Notes under the pieces: generated by a model
Databases searched by the model: none
Seen by the model: only the letters and a program-made list of their open reading frames with translations
What the model was told of the DNA's origin: nothing
Translations under genes and position numbers: made by a program
Part shown: one piece after another, positions 6,684 to 16,174 of the stretch
Position numbering within the stretch: the first letter of the stretch is position 1
Layout: each line of letters starts with the position of its first letter
Source of the DNA: a virus
Length of the DNA: 35,095 nucleotides
Strand: one strand, 5' to 3'
Virus record (IMG/VR): IMGVR_UViG_3300029309_000135
Location: 1-35,095 of that record

Positions 6684-7517
6684 ATGGATCCTTTTAAGCT
6701 GACAGAGCCATCTTGTATCAGCTTTAGTGGCGGCAGGACTAGCGCCTATATGTTATGGCGGTTCATAGAAGCTAATGATGGCCTGCCAGATGATTGTATC
6801 GTCACCTTTGCTAACACGGGCAAAGAGGCAGAGGAAACGCTGGAGTTTGTCAGAGACTGCGGGAAGCAGTGGGACGTTCCGATTGTCTGGCTAGAATATC
6901 AGTGGGCAGAAGCAACGAAAGACCGCTTTAAGGTAACTGATTTTTACACTGCTGCTAGGGATGGCGAGCCGTTTGAAGAGGTTATAAGGCTAGCGGGTGT
7001 TCTACCGAATCCTGTTGCGCGCTTCTGTAGCTTAGAGATGAAGGTAAAGACGATTGGCCGATATTTATTTAGCATTGGCATGGTGGAAAAGATCAGTCAT
7101 GGTGAAACATTTAGCATCGTTGGCATCAGGGCTGATGAGCAACGCAGAGCCGCCAAGATAGAGCCGCATCGCAGACCGTTAGTAAGCGCAGGCGTAACTA
7201 AAGAGACGGTCAGCATTTTCTGGAAGGATCAGCCGTTCGACCTTCAATTACCGAATCACAGTGGTGTAACTCCGCACGGCAACTGTGACCTATGCTTTTT
7301 AAAGTCTGCGGGCCTGATTAAATCACTCGTTGAGGAAAAGCCTAGCCGCGCTGATTGGTGGGCCAAAATGGAACGAGAGGTAGCTGCAGCGGGACAGTCA
7401 GGCGGTGTATGGCGACAAGACCGGCCCAGCTATGAACAGATGCAAGTCATTGCCAGAGAGCAAGGACAATTAGATCTGGCAGGGGATGAGACGGTCCCGT
7501 GCTTTTGCGGCGACTGA
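6684..7517 (+). CDS. PAPS reductase / DndC-like PP-loop protein
   Basis: The 277-residue protein belongs to the phosphoadenosine-phosphosulfate reductase superfamily of ATP pyrophosphatases. The PP-loop SGGRTS is at 15-20, preceded by the strand CISF. FANTGKE (42-48) is the second conserved nucleotide-site segment, and GIRADEQRR (147-155) matches the family's arginine-rich motif. Cysteines C115 (RFCSLEMK), C201 and C204 (NCDLCFLK) and C273/C275 (CFCGD at the very end) could hold an Fe-S cluster, as in DndC and some thiolation enzymes. The phage role is not established; adenylation of DNA or a small molecule is possible. ATG 6684 is the only start after the in-frame stop. Confidence 0.87.
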   Translation: MDPFKLTEPSCISFSGGRTSAYMLWRFIEANDGLPDDCIVTFANTGKEAEETLEFVRDCGKQWDVPIVWLEYQWAEATKDRFKVTDFYTAARDGEPFEEVIRLAGVLPNPVARFCSLEMKVKTIGRYLFSIGMVEKISHGETFSIVGIRADEQRRAAKIEPHRRPLVSAGVTKETVSIFWKDQPFDLQLPNHSGVTPHGNCDLCFLKSAGLIKSLVEEKPSRADWWAKMEREVAAAGQSGGVWRQDRPSYEQMQVIAREQGQLDLAGDETVPCFCGD

Positions 7518-11921: not shown

Positions 11922-13316
11922 ATGCCTGTAAGCACTAAGCACCCGCAGTGGGAACTGTACAAGCCTGTATGGGACAAAACCCGAGACGCAGTACGTGGAT
12001 CGGTGCAGATAAAAGAAAAAAAACACGTCTACCTTCCCGTGCCAGACCCAGAAACAGCAGATGAGCGGCTTGGCGAGAATACTTTACGATATCGTCAATA
12101 CATACGTCGGGCGGTATTTGCCAACTACACCGGTCGCACTAAAAACGCTTTAGTTGGGGCGGCGTTTCGTAAAGCTCCTGTCTACGAGTTGCCGGAAACC
12201 CTGGAGTATTTGATTAATGACGCAACCGGTGACGGCCTTGGGATTGAGCAGTTAGCTAAGGACGAGCTGAGCAATCTGCTGGAAACAGGCCGGACTTTGC
12301 TCCTGGTAGATTTTCCCCAGGCTGACGCAGGGCTGTCTGCAGAAGAGATACAGCGCCTCTCAATACGCGCCTCCATTATCCCCTACCCATGTGAGCAAGT
12401 AGTCAATTGGCGCACAGATACTATCGGCGGCAGGAAGCTAGTCACCATGATCGTGCTGGCAGAGAGCTATAAAACCGCTGACGATGAATTTGAGCATGAT
12501 AGCGAGGTGCAGTATAGGGTTTTGCGCTTGCGGGAGGATGGTTATACCCAGCAGCTATATCGGGAGGAGCAGCCTTTCAGCGCCGAGATCTACCCGAGGA
12601 AGTCAGACGGCAGCACATGGGATGAGATACCGGCGATTTTTGTTGGTGCTAAAAATAACGACAGCACTGTAGATGATGCGCCGCTTGCAGATATAGCCGA
12701 TGTCAATATTGCCCACTATCGCAACTCTGCAGATTATGAAGAATCGTGTTTTATCACCGGACAGCCGACGCTTTTCATTACCCATTCGTTAAACGCAGAC
12801 GAGTTTTTTGACTTTAACCCCGAGGGTATAAAGCTTGGAGCCAGGGCTGGTCATGTGCTGGGCGAGACAGGCAGCGCCTCATTGCTGCAGCCAAACGCAA
12901 ACAATTTAGTCGCAGAGGCCATGAAAGCGAAAGAGGCGCAGATGGTCGCTATTGGCGCTCGTATCATTACTGATCGCGGTAGCAATGAGACAGCAGAAGG
13001 CGCACGCATCCGATTTGCGTCGGAAAATTCCGTGTTAGGCGATATTGTCGGCAACCTAAGCGCAGCGTTGGAGCAATCTCTGGCCTGGTGCGGTGAATTT
13101 ATGGGCGCAAATGGCGACTTGAGCTTTGCTATCAATCGAGAGTTTTATGACAAATCGGTGGATCCGCAGTTAATTATGTCAATGGTGACGTTGATGGATA
13201 GACAGATTATTAGTGACCAGGATATTTTCGACCGATTGAAATCGGCGGGTATTATCGACGGCGCCCGTACGCTCGATGAGGTCAGGGAAGAGCTGGGAGA
13301 TTTGCCGCCGGTATGA
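11922..13316 (+). CDS. Portal protein, DUF4055 family
   Basis: The 464-residue protein has the DUF4055 pattern of portals: RYRQYIRRAVFANYTGRTKN near residues 45-65, ALVGAAFRKAP, a stretch GRTLLLVDFP (about 128-137), and SIIPYPCEQVVNWR (about 160-173). Later blocks include EIPAIFVGAKNND, ADYEESCFITGQPTLFI and ARIITDRGSNETAEGARIRF (near 355-374), where the portal stem is expected. It forms the dodecameric DNA channel at the capsid vertex. It follows terL and precedes the head genes. Its ribosome binding site is poor (only AGG twelve bases upstream). Confidence 0.92.
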   Translation: MPVSTKHPQWELYKPVWDKTRDAVRGSVQIKEKKHVYLPVPDPETADERLGENTLRYRQYIRRAVFANYTGRTKNALVGAAFRKAPVYELPETLEYLINDATGDGLGIEQLAKDELSNLLETGRTLLLVDFPQADAGLSAEEIQRLSIRASIIPYPCEQVVNWRTDTIGGRKLVTMIVLAESYKTADDEFEHDSEVQYRVLRLREDGYTQQLYREEQPFSAEIYPRKSDGSTWDEIPAIFVGAKNNDSTVDDAPLADIADVNIAHYRNSADYEESCFITGQPTLFITHSLNADEFFDFNPEGIKLGARAGHVLGETGSASLLQPNANNLVAEAMKAKEAQMVAIGARIITDRGSNETAEGARIRFASENSVLGDIVGNLSAALEQSLAWCGEFMGANGDLSFAINREFYDKSVDPQLIMSMVTLMDRQIISDQDIFDRLKSAGIIDGARTLDEVREELGDLPPV

Positions 13317-13531
13317 GTAAGGTGCGAACGCCCGCAGGTTACATGGTGCCCGCCAAGTATGTTGCAGGGCTGACAGGGGAGGAGCGGAAGCTGCGATTGC
13401 GCCAGTTAGACGAGATGCGGAAGAAAGGCAAACTACTAGGCCCACTAGCAGGAGATAAGAAGAAAGGAAAGAAAACCCCAGAGAGCAAGCATACCAAGGC
13501 TTACAGGCGGCGTTATGGCAAAAATAAGTGA
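13313..13531 (+). CDS. Lysine/arginine-rich small protein 1 (DUF5824-like pattern)
   Basis: The 72-residue protein overlaps the portal stop by four bases. It opens KVRTPAGYMVPAKYVAGLTG followed by EERKLRLRQLDEMRKKGKLL, and ends KAYRRRYGKNK. The P-x-[KR]-Y-V-x-GL motif then a charged helix resembles small proteins seen in marine phages and, in related form (DUF5824), in giant algal viruses. It has no acidic counterweight, so it should bind nucleic acid or acidic partners. It is the first of five basic genes in a row. Confidence 0.75.
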   Translation: MSKVRTPAGYMVPAKYVAGLTGEERKLRLRQLDEMRKKGKLLGPLAGDKKKGKKTPESKHTKAYRRRYGKNK

Positions 13532-13775
13532 GTCTGCGAAAAAGGCGCTGCAGCGTAAAGCGAAGGAGTCGAAGGCACCCTATGGGGCGCTGAAAGCTAT
13601 ATATATGAAGGGTTTGGGCGCAGCGGTCACATCAGGCCGCAGACCAGGGGTATCCCCGCAGCAGTGGGCAATGGCCCGAGTTAATAGTGTGCTAACTGGC
13701 GGCAAGGCTCGCTCAGTAGATGCGGCACAGTGGAAGCAGATCCAAAAACACCGCAAAGCGAAGCGCGGCAAGTAA
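13515..13775 (+). CDS. Lysine-rich small protein 2 (DUF5872-like pattern)
   Basis: The 86-residue protein begins MAKISESAKKALQRKAKESK. Its core, ALKAIYMKGLGAAVTSGRRP followed by GVSPQQWAMARVNSVLTGG (about 26-64), matches a [YF]-x-[RK]-GLxA-x-x-x-G-x-RPG-x-x-x-x-x-W-x-x-ARV-x-S-x-[LI]-x-G pattern that I associate with DUF5872-type proteins of giant viruses and marine phages. The C-terminus is basic (KHRKAKRGK). It overlaps the previous gene by 17 bases and shares one base with the next. The function of the family is unknown to me. Confidence 0.78.
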   Translation: MAKISESAKKALQRKAKESKAPYGALKAIYMKGLGAAVTSGRRPGVSPQQWAMARVNSVLTGGKARSVDAAQWKQIQKHRKAKRGK

Positions 13776-14059
13776 TGGCAAGAGACCCTAGATTAAAACG
13801 ATTCGGTCTCTCTGGGTACAATAAGCCAAAGAGAACGCCGAAGCACCCAAACAAAAGCCACATGGTATTAGCGAAAGAGGGCGACAAGATTAAGCTGATA
13901 AGATTTGGGCAGCAGGGCGCTCGCACTGCAGGTAAACCAAAGCCTGGGGAAAGTGAGGCAATGAAGAAAAAGCGTGCGAGCTTTAAGTCGAGACACGCCA
14001 AAAACATAGCTAAGGGTAAGATGTCTGCAGCGTTTTGGGCAAATAAGGTGAAATGGTAA
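13775..14059 (+). CDS. Lysine-rich small protein 3 (DUF6321-like)
   Basis: ATG 13775 overlaps the previous stop by one base and gives 94 residues; an upstream in-frame ATG at 13730 lies inside the previous gene. The core has strands SHMVLAKEGDKIKLIRFGQQ (about 28-47), then GARTAGKPKPGES and a conserved RASFKSRHAKNIAKGKMSAA ending FWANKVKW. The RFGQQGA...KRxSFxxRHxxNIxKGKxSAxxWAxKVKW series is distinctive and typical of DUF6321-type proteins. High positive charge suggests a role with packaged DNA or RNA, but this is not established. Confidence 0.82.
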   Translation: MARDPRLKRFGLSGYNKPKRTPKHPNKSHMVLAKEGDKIKLIRFGQQGARTAGKPKPGESEAMKKKRASFKSRHAKNIAKGKMSAAFWANKVKW

Positions 14060-14248
14060 ATGGCAAAAGGTGTGGCGCATTACAAGAAAGACGGGACTTT
14101 GCATTCTGGCAACACTCACAAGATGCCAGATGGTAGTTTACATACAGGCAAGGTACACGGGAAAACCTCGGTGAAACTATTTCACTATAAGGATTTATCC
14201 AAGCGGGCAAAGGCAAAAGCTGACGCCCAGAAAGCAAAGAAAAAGTAA
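14060..14248 (+). CDS. Lysine-rich small protein 4
   Basis: The 62-residue product starts directly after the previous stop. It contains HYKKDGTLHSGNTHKMPDGS followed by LHTGKVHGKTSVKLFHYKDL, a pair of DGTLHSG/DGSLHTG hairpin-like repeats, and a Lys-Ala tail (SKRAKAKADAQKAKKK). This histidine- and glycine-rich hairpin with a KAK tail recurs in marine phages. No biochemical role is known to me. Confidence 0.75.
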   Translation: MAKGVAHYKKDGTLHSGNTHKMPDGSLHTGKVHGKTSVKLFHYKDLSKRAKAKADAQKAKKK

Positions 14249-14260
14249 GGAGGCGCTGTT

Positions 14261-14359
14261 ATGCCAACTGGAAAAGGAAGTTATGGGAACATGGTCGGAA
14301 GGCCACCAAAAAAGAAAAAAAAGGCAGCAGCTAAGCCTAAAAAGAATGGCAAAAAGTAA
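14261..14359 (+). CDS. Lysine-rich micro-protein 5
   Basis: This 32-residue frame has one of the best ribosome binding sites in the region (AAGGAGG, 14246-14252, before ATG 14261). The product begins MPTGKGSYGNMVGRPPKKKK and continues with a Lys-Ala tail to KNGKK. The G-x-YG-x-x-VGRPPKKK start is like AT-hook-type GRP motifs and occurs in other phage micro-proteins. Its size is below usual gene-finding limits, but position and ribosome binding site support expression. Confidence 0.65.
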   Translation: MPTGKGSYGNMVGRPPKKKKKAAAKPKKNGKK

Positions 14360-14368
14360 CTGCATTGA

Positions 14369-16174
14369 GTGTCTGCCGAAGATGATATTTTTGATGCCGT
14401 CACGAGGCATCAGATATTTGTATTGCGTTACGCAAAAGGCCGTGAGCGAGAGGCAGAGGAGTTTATTGCCCGCCAGTTAGAGGAGGTTATATACCGTCTC
14501 GAAACTGGCAACCTGACTGATTTTGGGCGCAGCAGAGCACAGGCCCAAGCAACTGACCTATATCAATATCTAGGAGAGTCAGATAAAGAATACGCAGACG
14601 CGTTTAAATCTAAGCTGGTCGAGTTTGGGGAGTACGAGGCTGAATTCAACCGCACAATGATGCAGAAACACCTGCAGACGGATCTGTCCGTCCCTGCTCC
14701 GATACAAATACAGCAGGCGGCGTTTGCAAACATCATGGGCTTAGAGCCTAGCAAAGGCTACACATTAGGCGGAATGCTGGACGATTTTGGCCCGCTGCAC
14801 CGCGACTTAGTGATTGGTAAGGTTAGAGCAGCCATTGTCCTGGGGGATACTACTAATGAGCTTACATCGGAGATACGTAAACTCGTCGGATTACAAGGTC
14901 GCAAAGCCGCTACTCTGGCGCGTACAGCGGTTAATCATGTCTCTGTACAGGCGCGTAAAGAGACTCTTAAAGAAAATGATGACGTTTTGCTTGGGTACGA
15001 GTGGGTAGCGACCTTAGATAGCCGCACATCTTTGATATGCATGGCCCGCGACGGGGTTATATATAAAGATTACGACAACGACCCAAAGCCTCCGGCGCAC
15101 TTTAACTGCCGCAGCACAATTACCCCCAAAGTTAACCCCGCGTTTGACCTGGGAGCAGATGATATCGGCACTCGCGCAGCCGTGGGCAGCGGTGGGGCTG
15201 GTCCAGTTTCTGCAGGGCTTAACTACGATCAATGGTTACGCAAGCAAAGTGCTGGATTCCAAGACCAGGTGCTCGGCAAATCAAGGGCCAAGCTCTTCCG
15301 AGGCGGTCTGACAATTGATAAATTTATCGATCAAAAGGGAAAAACCCTCACGCTCACGCAATTAAAGCGGGATGATGCCCAGTTTGTTCTGGAGACAGAG
15401 ATAACGCCCAATGTCAGCGTGTCGGGGCGCGTAAAATTTGACGATATCAATGATTGTAAAGATCTTACAGCGGAAGAACTATCACAATTTCTTGATGATA
15501 CGTTATCGCCAGACCTCAAAAAACTTGTGACCAGAATCGAAAGGCCAGCCAAGATATTCGACGGCGAGAAAAACAAAAAAGGTGAGCCTACAGGGTCATA
15601 TTACAGTAGCTATTATAGGAAATTGCATCAGGAAAATTACATAAATGACGATATGAACCGAACGCCTATCACGTTTGCCCATGAGTACGGGCATCATATT
15701 GATTATGAGTTAGGTGACAAAAGATTCCAGGCGTTTAGCGAGGCGAATCCGGCATTTAAAAAAGCGTTTCTGGATGACCGCAAAGAATTGGGATTAAGGG
15801 CTACAAAAACGAAGCAGCAGGCGCTGGATATGTTGAGTCAAGAGCTATATGACGATCAGGTAATGACAAATGCCAAGAACGGCTACACATGGACCGAAAA
15901 GGTTCGCAAAACAAGCTGGTCATCAAAGGCGTCTGATATCGTAGATGCTATGTCTGAGGGCAAATTCTGGAAATCGGGGCATTGGGGCCACGGGCCAAAG
16001 TACTACAAAAACAGGGGGTCCAAAGAAAAAGAAACGTTCGCCAATCTGTTTGCACTGCGTGGAAACCCAGAGGCGTGGGCGTTTTGTCAGCGCCGCTTTC
16101 CGCGTCTGTCAAAGCTATTTGATGAAATTGTAGACGAGTACCTGAAATCAGGGAGAAACACATATGACGGCTGA
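14369..16174 (+). CDS. MuF minor head protein fused to a zinc metallopeptidase
   Basis: The 601-residue protein starts with GTG 14369. The N-terminal half is a MuF-type head morphogenesis domain (core about 150-255). It includes ARTAVNHVSVQARKE, WVATLDSRTSLICMARDG and the typical end PPAHFNCRST (C247, R248) ITP. Residues about 330-601 are a different module with HEYGHH (HExxH at 438-442) inside TFAHEYGHHIDYEL. E555 in KETFANLFAL is a candidate third zinc ligand, as in gluzincin-type toxins. MuF proteins carrying C-terminal enzyme or toxin domains are known in phages. The module may be a head-maturation protease or an injected effector. Neighbours: five basic micro-genes upstream and an overlapping small gene downstream. 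Confidence 0.88.
   Translation: MSAEDDIFDAVTRHQIFVLRYAKGREREAEEFIARQLEEVIYRLETGNLTDFGRSRAQAQATDLYQYLGESDKEYADAFKSKLVEFGEYEAEFNRTMMQKHLQTDLSVPAPIQIQQAAFANIMGLEPSKGYTLGGMLDDFGPLHRDLVIGKVRAAIVLGDTTNELTSEIRKLVGLQGRKAATLARTAVNHVSVQARKETLKENDDVLLGYEWVATLDSRTSLICMARDGVIYKDYDNDPKPPAHFNCRSTITPKVNPAFDLGADDIGTRAAVGSGGAGPVSAGLNYDQWLRKQSAGFQDQVLGKSRAKLFRGGLTIDKFIDQKGKTLTLTQLKRDDAQFVLETEITPNVSVSGRVKFDDINDCKDLTAEELSQFLDDTLSPDLKKLVTRIERPAKIFDGEKNKKGEPTGSYYSSYYRKLHQENYINDDMNRTPITFAHEYGHHIDYELGDKRFQAFSEANPAFKKAFLDDRKELGLRATKTKQQALDMLSQELYDDQVMTNAKNGYTWTEKVRKTSWSSKASDIVDAMSEGKFWKSGHWGHGPKYYKNRGSKEKETFANLFALRGNPEAWAFCQRRFPRLSKLFDEIVDEYLKSGRNTYDG

Follow-up and report, generated by a model that had tools for sequence, protein, structure and literature searches.

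The stretch of viral DNA analyzed here (35,095 nucleotides of IMG/VR record IMGVR_UViG_3300029309_000135, referred to below as the window) carries five consecutive micro-genes, which we call m1 to m5, between a portal gene (positions 11922 to 13316; PHROG 145, E = 6e-138; DUF4055, E = 2.6e-30) and the gene for a MuF minor head protein (positions 14369 to 16174; Phage_Mu_F, E = 2.7e-15; PHROG 241). All of these genes are on the plus strand. Pfam and PHROG profiles identified a TerL gene upstream of the portal gene and, downstream of the MuF gene, genes for a scaffold and a P22-type coat protein. The window MuF protein has an HEYGH motif in its C-terminal part, and a C-terminal HExxH motif was found in 27 of 28 homologues of at least 450 amino acids (aa).

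The first micro-gene, m1 (positions 13313 to 13531; 72 aa; net charge, +17), starts within the portal gene, with 4 bp (ATGA) common to the portal TGA stop codon and the m1 ATG start codon. It is followed by m2 (13515 to 13775; 86 aa; net charge, +18), m3 (13775 to 14059; 94 aa; net charge, +22), m4 (14060 to 14248; 62 aa; net charge, +12), and m5 (14261 to 14359; 32 aa; net charge, +12). The product of m4 belongs to a small conserved family without a Pfam or PHROG match, and that of m5 is a lysine-rich peptide in which 12 of 32 residues are lysine or arginine. The genes are packed in an operon-like manner, with spacings of −17 bp (m1/m2), −1 bp (m2/m3), 0 bp (m3/m4), +12 bp (m4/m5), and +9 bp (m5/MuF). 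Lysine and arginine make up 24 to 38% of the five products, which have pI values of 10.3 to 11.5 and net charges of +12 to +22; for 26 other genes of the window, the lysine-plus-arginine content is 3 to 18%, and the products are mostly acidic.

pN was lower than pS in every pairwise comparison within each family (62 of 62 for m1, 82 of 82 for m2, 137 of 137 for m3, 21 of 21 for m4, and 10 of 10 for m5). For the closest pairs, pN was 0.08 to 0.26, versus a pS of 0.6 to 0.98. All five genes are under purifying selection and, because pN was below pS in all comparisons, we concluded that they are true genes and not chance open reading frames (ORFs). An earlier note on this DNA had described five consecutive basic micro-genes (72, 86, 94, 62, and 32 codons) between the portal and MuF genes, and the coordinates, charges, and pN values confirm that description.

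Genes 1 and 2 and the DUF5824 family

Residues 13 to 69 of m1 matched positions 1 to 54 of the 127-position DUF5824 profile (PF19141; E = 0.009; 16.6 bits), and residues 9 to 69 of m2 matched positions 57 to 121 (E = 2.3e-11; 44.4 bits). The gathering score of DUF5824 is 25 bits, which m2 passes and which m1 alone does not reach. In the m1 family, DUF5824 matches were found in 13 of 19 aligned members (best E, 6.5e-6), where 6 of the 19 are the N-terminal halves of single-chain proteins. Judged from these profile matches, which follow one another in order, m1 and m2 are the two halves of one Pfam family, DUF5824, cut at its midpoint. The family has no known function. The window and its relatives differ from the full-length form in having two overlapping ORFs; in contigs of T4-like marine phages, a single ORF holds both halves, with Pfam E values down to 9.7e-24. 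Because the m1 and m2 profiles were iterated, the E values that they give for single-chain members are optimistic, and the Pfam and PHROG matches serve as the independent evidence for these members.

The two genes were adjacent and overlapping, with m2 in the +1 frame, in 62 of 62 distinct contigs, the window included (64 m1 loci were listed, among which L001 duplicates the window and L002 and L084 are one contig). This constant offset, found in all 64 listed loci, is consistent with a +1 frameshift in the overlap, which would give one full DUF5824 chain and no separate products. Upstream of the m1 stop codon, the m2 frame also contains no stop codon over at least 76 bp, and single-chain homologues are known. 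However, the overlap contains an m2 start codon, and a Shine-Dalgarno core precedes that start in 19 of 26 distinct upstream sequences, most strongly where the start codon is GTG. The window sequence is not among the 19; its AGGCGG (positions 13505 to 13510, plus strand, inside m1) is a weak Shine-Dalgarno-like site, and many relatives have AGGAGG. The length of the overlap, 17 bp in the window, differs among clades, and in pelagiphage HTVC202P, the two halves (gp55, a partial m1, and gp56, an m2) overlap by 1 bp in a frame other than +1. Inspection by eye revealed no slippery site. Since a Shine-Dalgarno core lies within the end of m1 for the majority of m2 starts, we favor separate initiation of m2 and regard frameshifting as highly improbable. 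One DUF5824 protein would then be made as two chains, with m2 starting on its own and the halves probably re-associating.

An AlphaFold2 model of a single-chain DUF5824 protein was all-helical (pLDDT, 79; pTM, 0.75), and no similar solved structure was found (best PDB E, 3.8). Relatives of the C-terminal half were almost absent from cellular genomes; a pattern scan that covered 84,980 species found them at 5 loci.

Gene 3, its neighbors, and its fusion partners

Residues 4 to 94 of m3 matched positions 6 to 96 of the 96-position PHROG 7595 profile (E = 2.2e-40), i.e., the full length of a family that has no function label. Homologues of PHROG 7595 are very common in IMG/VR (at least 600 rows). 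The AlphaFold2 model of m3 has a beta-hairpin followed by several helices (pLDDT, 81; pTM, 0.68). Among predicted viral proteins, it matched an XkdF protein and ORF125 of phage ICP1 with a probability of 0.99; a weaker match was a 95-aa protein from Tunisvirus, a giant virus (probability, 0.82; E = 0.1). No solved structure similar to the m3 model was found (best PDB E, 1.3), neither this model nor the DUF5824 model resembled a solved DNA-binding protein, and the PDB, searched by sequence and by profile, gave no match at an E value below 0.2.

Other domains of unknown function were matched less well. The comparison of m3 with DUF5754 (PF19058) gave 11.2 bits (E = 0.39) and did not reach the gathering score of 27.4 bits; DUF5754 matches were found in 22 of 44 m3 relatives (best E, 0.0018), with every score shown below 27.4 bits. 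This profile similarity is only suggestive of a link between m3 and DUF5754. DUF6321 (PF19846) gave weak matches in 5 of the 44 relatives (best E, 0.0088). In other phages, the neighbors of m3 include two micro-gene families (a further neighbor cluster, a mixture of unrelated genes, was not used), and their fused form, an ORF beside the m3 homologue of locus L061, matched DUF5872 (PF19197; E = 3.6e-5) with 24.8 bits, below the cutoff of 27.5 bits. The earlier note had named DUF5824-, DUF5872-, and DUF6321-like patterns, which it associated with marine phages and giant algal viruses. DUF5824 stands, as one family spread over m1 and m2, whereas DUF5872 and DUF6321 match no protein of the window; the naming of DUF5872 nevertheless came close, because the fused form beside m3 in L061 matches it just below the cutoff. 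The link to giant viruses is weak.

Fetching loci with m2 or m3, a choice of query that biases the set, yielded 47 loci (46 distinct contigs) in which a portal gene precedes a MuF gene. The m3 gene lay between the two in all 47 loci, and m1 and m2 did so as well in 44, with m4 between m2 and m3 in 14 of these. The exact five-gene set was found in the window only (1 of 47). When contigs were fetched by the portal gene alone, 22 had both portal and MuF genes, and m3 lay between them in 20. Seven of the 22 had m1 and m2, always both together. The portal gene was directly beside the MuF gene in 2 contigs (L412 and L415), from which all five families were absent. Because 20 of the 22 contigs have m3 at this place and 2 have nothing there, we concluded that the cassette is typical of this head type yet dispensable for it.

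The fourth and fifth genes are variable companions. Homologues of m4 were found at 23 loci, counting the window and its copy, and are present in a subset of loci only; elsewhere the order differs, with m4 before m3. The m4 profile fetched 80 contigs, of which 41 also carry m3, in 29 cases within 550 bp (midpoint to midpoint). For m5, phmmer gave 12 hits in 12 loci, a count that again includes the window and its copy. Among the 22 portal-fetched contigs, most have a lysine-rich ORF of 26 to 44 aa just before the MuF gene, and in many of them the ORF in this slot is a different one from m5; place and lysine-rich composition are conserved more than sequence. The conserved core of the cassette is m1 to m3. 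Synteny outside this genome, which the earlier note had proposed as a check, was found for m1 to m3 and was absent for the complete set of five.

Prochlorococcus phage P-HS2/MED4-184 has portal and MuF proteins of the same PHROGs as the window, with m2 (gp42) and m3 (gp44) downstream of the MuF gene, ahead of a scaffold-like gene and the coat gene. We considered gp41 of MED4-184 a candidate for a diverged m1 by its place and by eye; it was not significant by profile and was not counted. At standalone m3 loci, the commonest recognized large neighbors encode terminase, portal, head-morphogenesis, and adaptor proteins. Phages without this head type can have m3 outside the head block, as in CRP-1 and HMO-2011, where it lies towards the end of the genome, and in S-EIVl, where it lies beside a lysozyme gene.

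The modules of the cassette also occur fused. A cytidylyltransferase, DUF5824, and m3 are joined in one ORF in 21 contigs and in Methylophilales phage Melnitz-1, and pelagiphage HTVC008M has a cytidylyltransferase-DUF5824 gene with an m3 gene directly after it. From these single ORFs and the gene order in HTVC008M, we concluded that m1, m2, and m3 belong together. In gp125 of ICP1 (PHROG 9979; Peptidase_S78_2/XkdF), a Peptidase_S78_2 domain (residues 36 to 160) is followed by a C-terminal m3 domain (about residues 184 to 261; m3 profile, E = 1.2e-11; PHROG 7595, E = 1.3e-11). A reverse tblastn search with this m3 domain recovered the m3 genes of KBS-S-2A and CRP-603. Roseophage CRP-6 gp55 has the opposite order, with an N-terminal m3 domain before Peptidase_S78_2; the m3 protein of the window has no protease part.

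A third type of fusion was found in gp012 of Aphanizomenon phage CL131 (1393 aa; PHROG 220, minor head protein and DNA pilot), which contains Phage_portal_3 (residues 60 to 419), m3 (535 to 604; E = 4.3e-9 at a search space of 1000), InPase (631 to 752), and Phage_Mu_F (991 to 1103) domains. The order portal, m3, MuF is that of the separate genes of the window. CL131 gp012 differs from the window in being one chain, in its InPase domain, and in its portal family, and no m1, m2, or m4 domain was found in it. The connection of PHROG 7595 with portal-MuF and capsid-protease fusions is drawn here from these domain matches.

The m3 genes outside the head block in CRP-1, HMO-2011, and S-EIVl, together with the nature of the products as small basic proteins of unknown function, are compatible with nucleic-acid-binding or regulatory proteins that act inside the cell, are cotranscribed with head genes, and never enter particles. 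The tight coupling of the cassette to the portal and MuF genes and the fusions of m3 to a capsid protease and to a portal-MuF chain argue against this explanation, and we consider it very unlikely.

Virion evidence and possible roles in the head

LC-MS/MS of purified CL131 virions identified 23 virion proteins, among them the portal protein ORF012, i.e., gp012 (PMC6293099). Direct evidence of an m3 domain in virions comes from this distant, fused homologue alone, and its portal or MuF portion may be enough to account for its presence. No virion proteome turned up for this phage or for any phage in which m1 to m5 are free-standing genes. Cytidylyltransferases have been detected in virions of cyanophages S-SM1 (PMC3037559) and S-CREM2 (PMC10665884). 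No DUF5824 or m3 domain was recognizable in these two proteins, and their support for a head location is therefore indirect. The paper on the ICP1 capsid describes particles formed from coat, scaffold, and decoration proteins, and gp125 goes unnamed there. Our literature search found no paper naming DUF5824 or “cytitidyltransferase.” The earlier suggestion of virion proteins that bind packaged DNA, or of internal head proteins injected with it, is partly supported: the synteny of portal-fetched contigs (20 of 22) and the portal-MuF and capsid-protease fusions point to the virion or procapsid.

Taking together the coupling to head genes, the fusions to procapsid and portal proteins, the high positive charge, and the gain and loss of the genes as a block, we favor, with moderate confidence, the explanation that m1 to m5 are an accessory set of basic proteins of the head interior that probably bind DNA and are ejected with it. 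For the window's own proteins, we infer the head location from the genes. The core of m1 to m3, with m4 and m5 as variable companions, would be an accessory cassette produced together with the portal, MuF, scaffold, and coat proteins. Its products would become part of the procapsid, with portal, MuF, or the core as their most likely points of contact, and m3 would act jointly with m1 and m2, presumably in a complex. Inside the head, their lysines would neutralize DNA phosphates, and the proteins would exit with the DNA at infection. In T4 heads, internal proteins make contact with DNA phosphates through their lysines (PMC3012670), and the proposed mode of action is modeled on these lysine-rich proteins within the packaged DNA. 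The analogy is one of working mode; no family shared with m1 to m5 was detected. T4-type internal proteins carry an N-terminal capsid-targeting sequence that the prohead protease cuts. In T4-like relatives, a rough scan of the N-terminal region for such a signal ([LIFV]xE) gave no excess, with the motif in 30 of 60 module proteins versus 114 of 230 neighbors.

Proteins made with the head might instead serve its assembly only, nucleating or shaping the procapsid and being lost before maturation. They could help to incorporate portal or MuF, balance the acidic scaffold protein (pI, 4.9 in the window), or act as partners or substrates of a maturation protease. The position of the cassette beside the portal, MuF, and scaffold genes and the fusion of m3 domains to either end of XkdF capsid proteases would fit such roles. 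However, the m3-bearing chain of CL131 was reported from purified virions, and contigs L412 and L415 lack all five families, which shows that heads of this type can do without the cassette. We regard a role in assembly only as conceivable but rather unlikely.

A second possibility is that the proteins are carried in the head, as in the explanation that we favor, but act mainly in the new host, against restriction or in host takeover, in the manner of domains of polyvalent MuF-type proteins, with DNA neutralization secondary. Anti-restriction proteins are among the T4 internal proteins (PMC3012670), enzymes occur as fusion partners (InPase in CL131 and cytidylyltransferase in T4-like phages), and the gene set is variable and sometimes absent. 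However, Pfam and PHROG profiles recognized no toxin, nuclease, or anti-defense domain in m1 to m5, and m2 and m3 are strongly conserved across unrelated phages, unlike fast-evolving anti-defense genes. In contrast to polyvalent MuF-type proteins, m1 to m5 are genes separate from MuF; in CL131, portal, m3, InPase, and MuF form one chain. We consider injected effectors of this kind unlikely.

A broader proposal, which we put forward as speculation, is that DUF5824, PHROG 7595/DUF5754-like, and DUF5872-type modules make up a single toolkit of basic proteins of the head interior, which condense DNA or escort it. Tailed phages that are unrelated to each other, and possibly giant viruses as well, would share this toolkit; in small phages its modules would have been split into micro-genes on repeated occasions, whereas others would carry them as fused parts of large head proteins.

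Micro-genes such as these, within head operons, stay annotated as hypothetical. The portal-MuF and capsid-protease fusions give PHROG 7595 and DUF5824 a concrete candidate location, the interior of the phage head. With one domain divided between two overlapping genes, and with companions that can disappear jointly, the cassette offers a natural experiment on the head equipment of phages.

Occupied and empty sites between portal and MuF

Two contigs, L412 and L415, encode related portal and MuF proteins with no micro-genes in between, the two genes being about 8 and 19 bp apart as judged by open-frame limits. This junction is an empty version of the micro-gene site. In L400-L408, L410, L411, L413 and L421, the slot between m3 (PHROG 7595) and MuF, immediately 5′ of MuF, is filled by lysine-rich ORFs of 26 to 44 aa that differ among phages; position and composition are kept, and sequence is not. 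Near the single portal-m3-MuF gene of Aphanizomenon phage CL131, an HU-family DNA-binding protein is encoded on the opposite strand (L399:13462-13749).

An HExxH motif in the MuF protein

The C-terminal part of the MuF protein (14369-16174) contains a zinc-metalloprotease-like HExxH motif, HEYGH (15680-15694). HExxH was found at the corresponding C-terminal site in 27 of 28 MuF homologues of at least 450 aa; a second class of homologues is shorter (about 345 to 400 aa). In MuF of Prochlorococcus phage P-HS2/MED4-184 the motif reads HEMGH, and this protein matches ATLF weakly.

DUF5824 and DUF5872 in other phages

Roseobacter phage CRP-823 encodes a 238-aa protein with the C-terminal half of DUF5824 (L167:4340-5056; E value, 1.7e-4) between portal and coat, annotated as “major capsid protein”; this head slot resembles that of m1 and m2, which carry the halves of DUF5824. 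In L061, one ORF (6857-7255) matches DUF5872 (E value, 3.6e-5, below the cut-off) and appears to join two micro-protein families, each of which has a gene of its own close to m3 elsewhere (in 35 and 54 loci). After DUF5824, this appears to be a second case of one domain carried in one or two genes.
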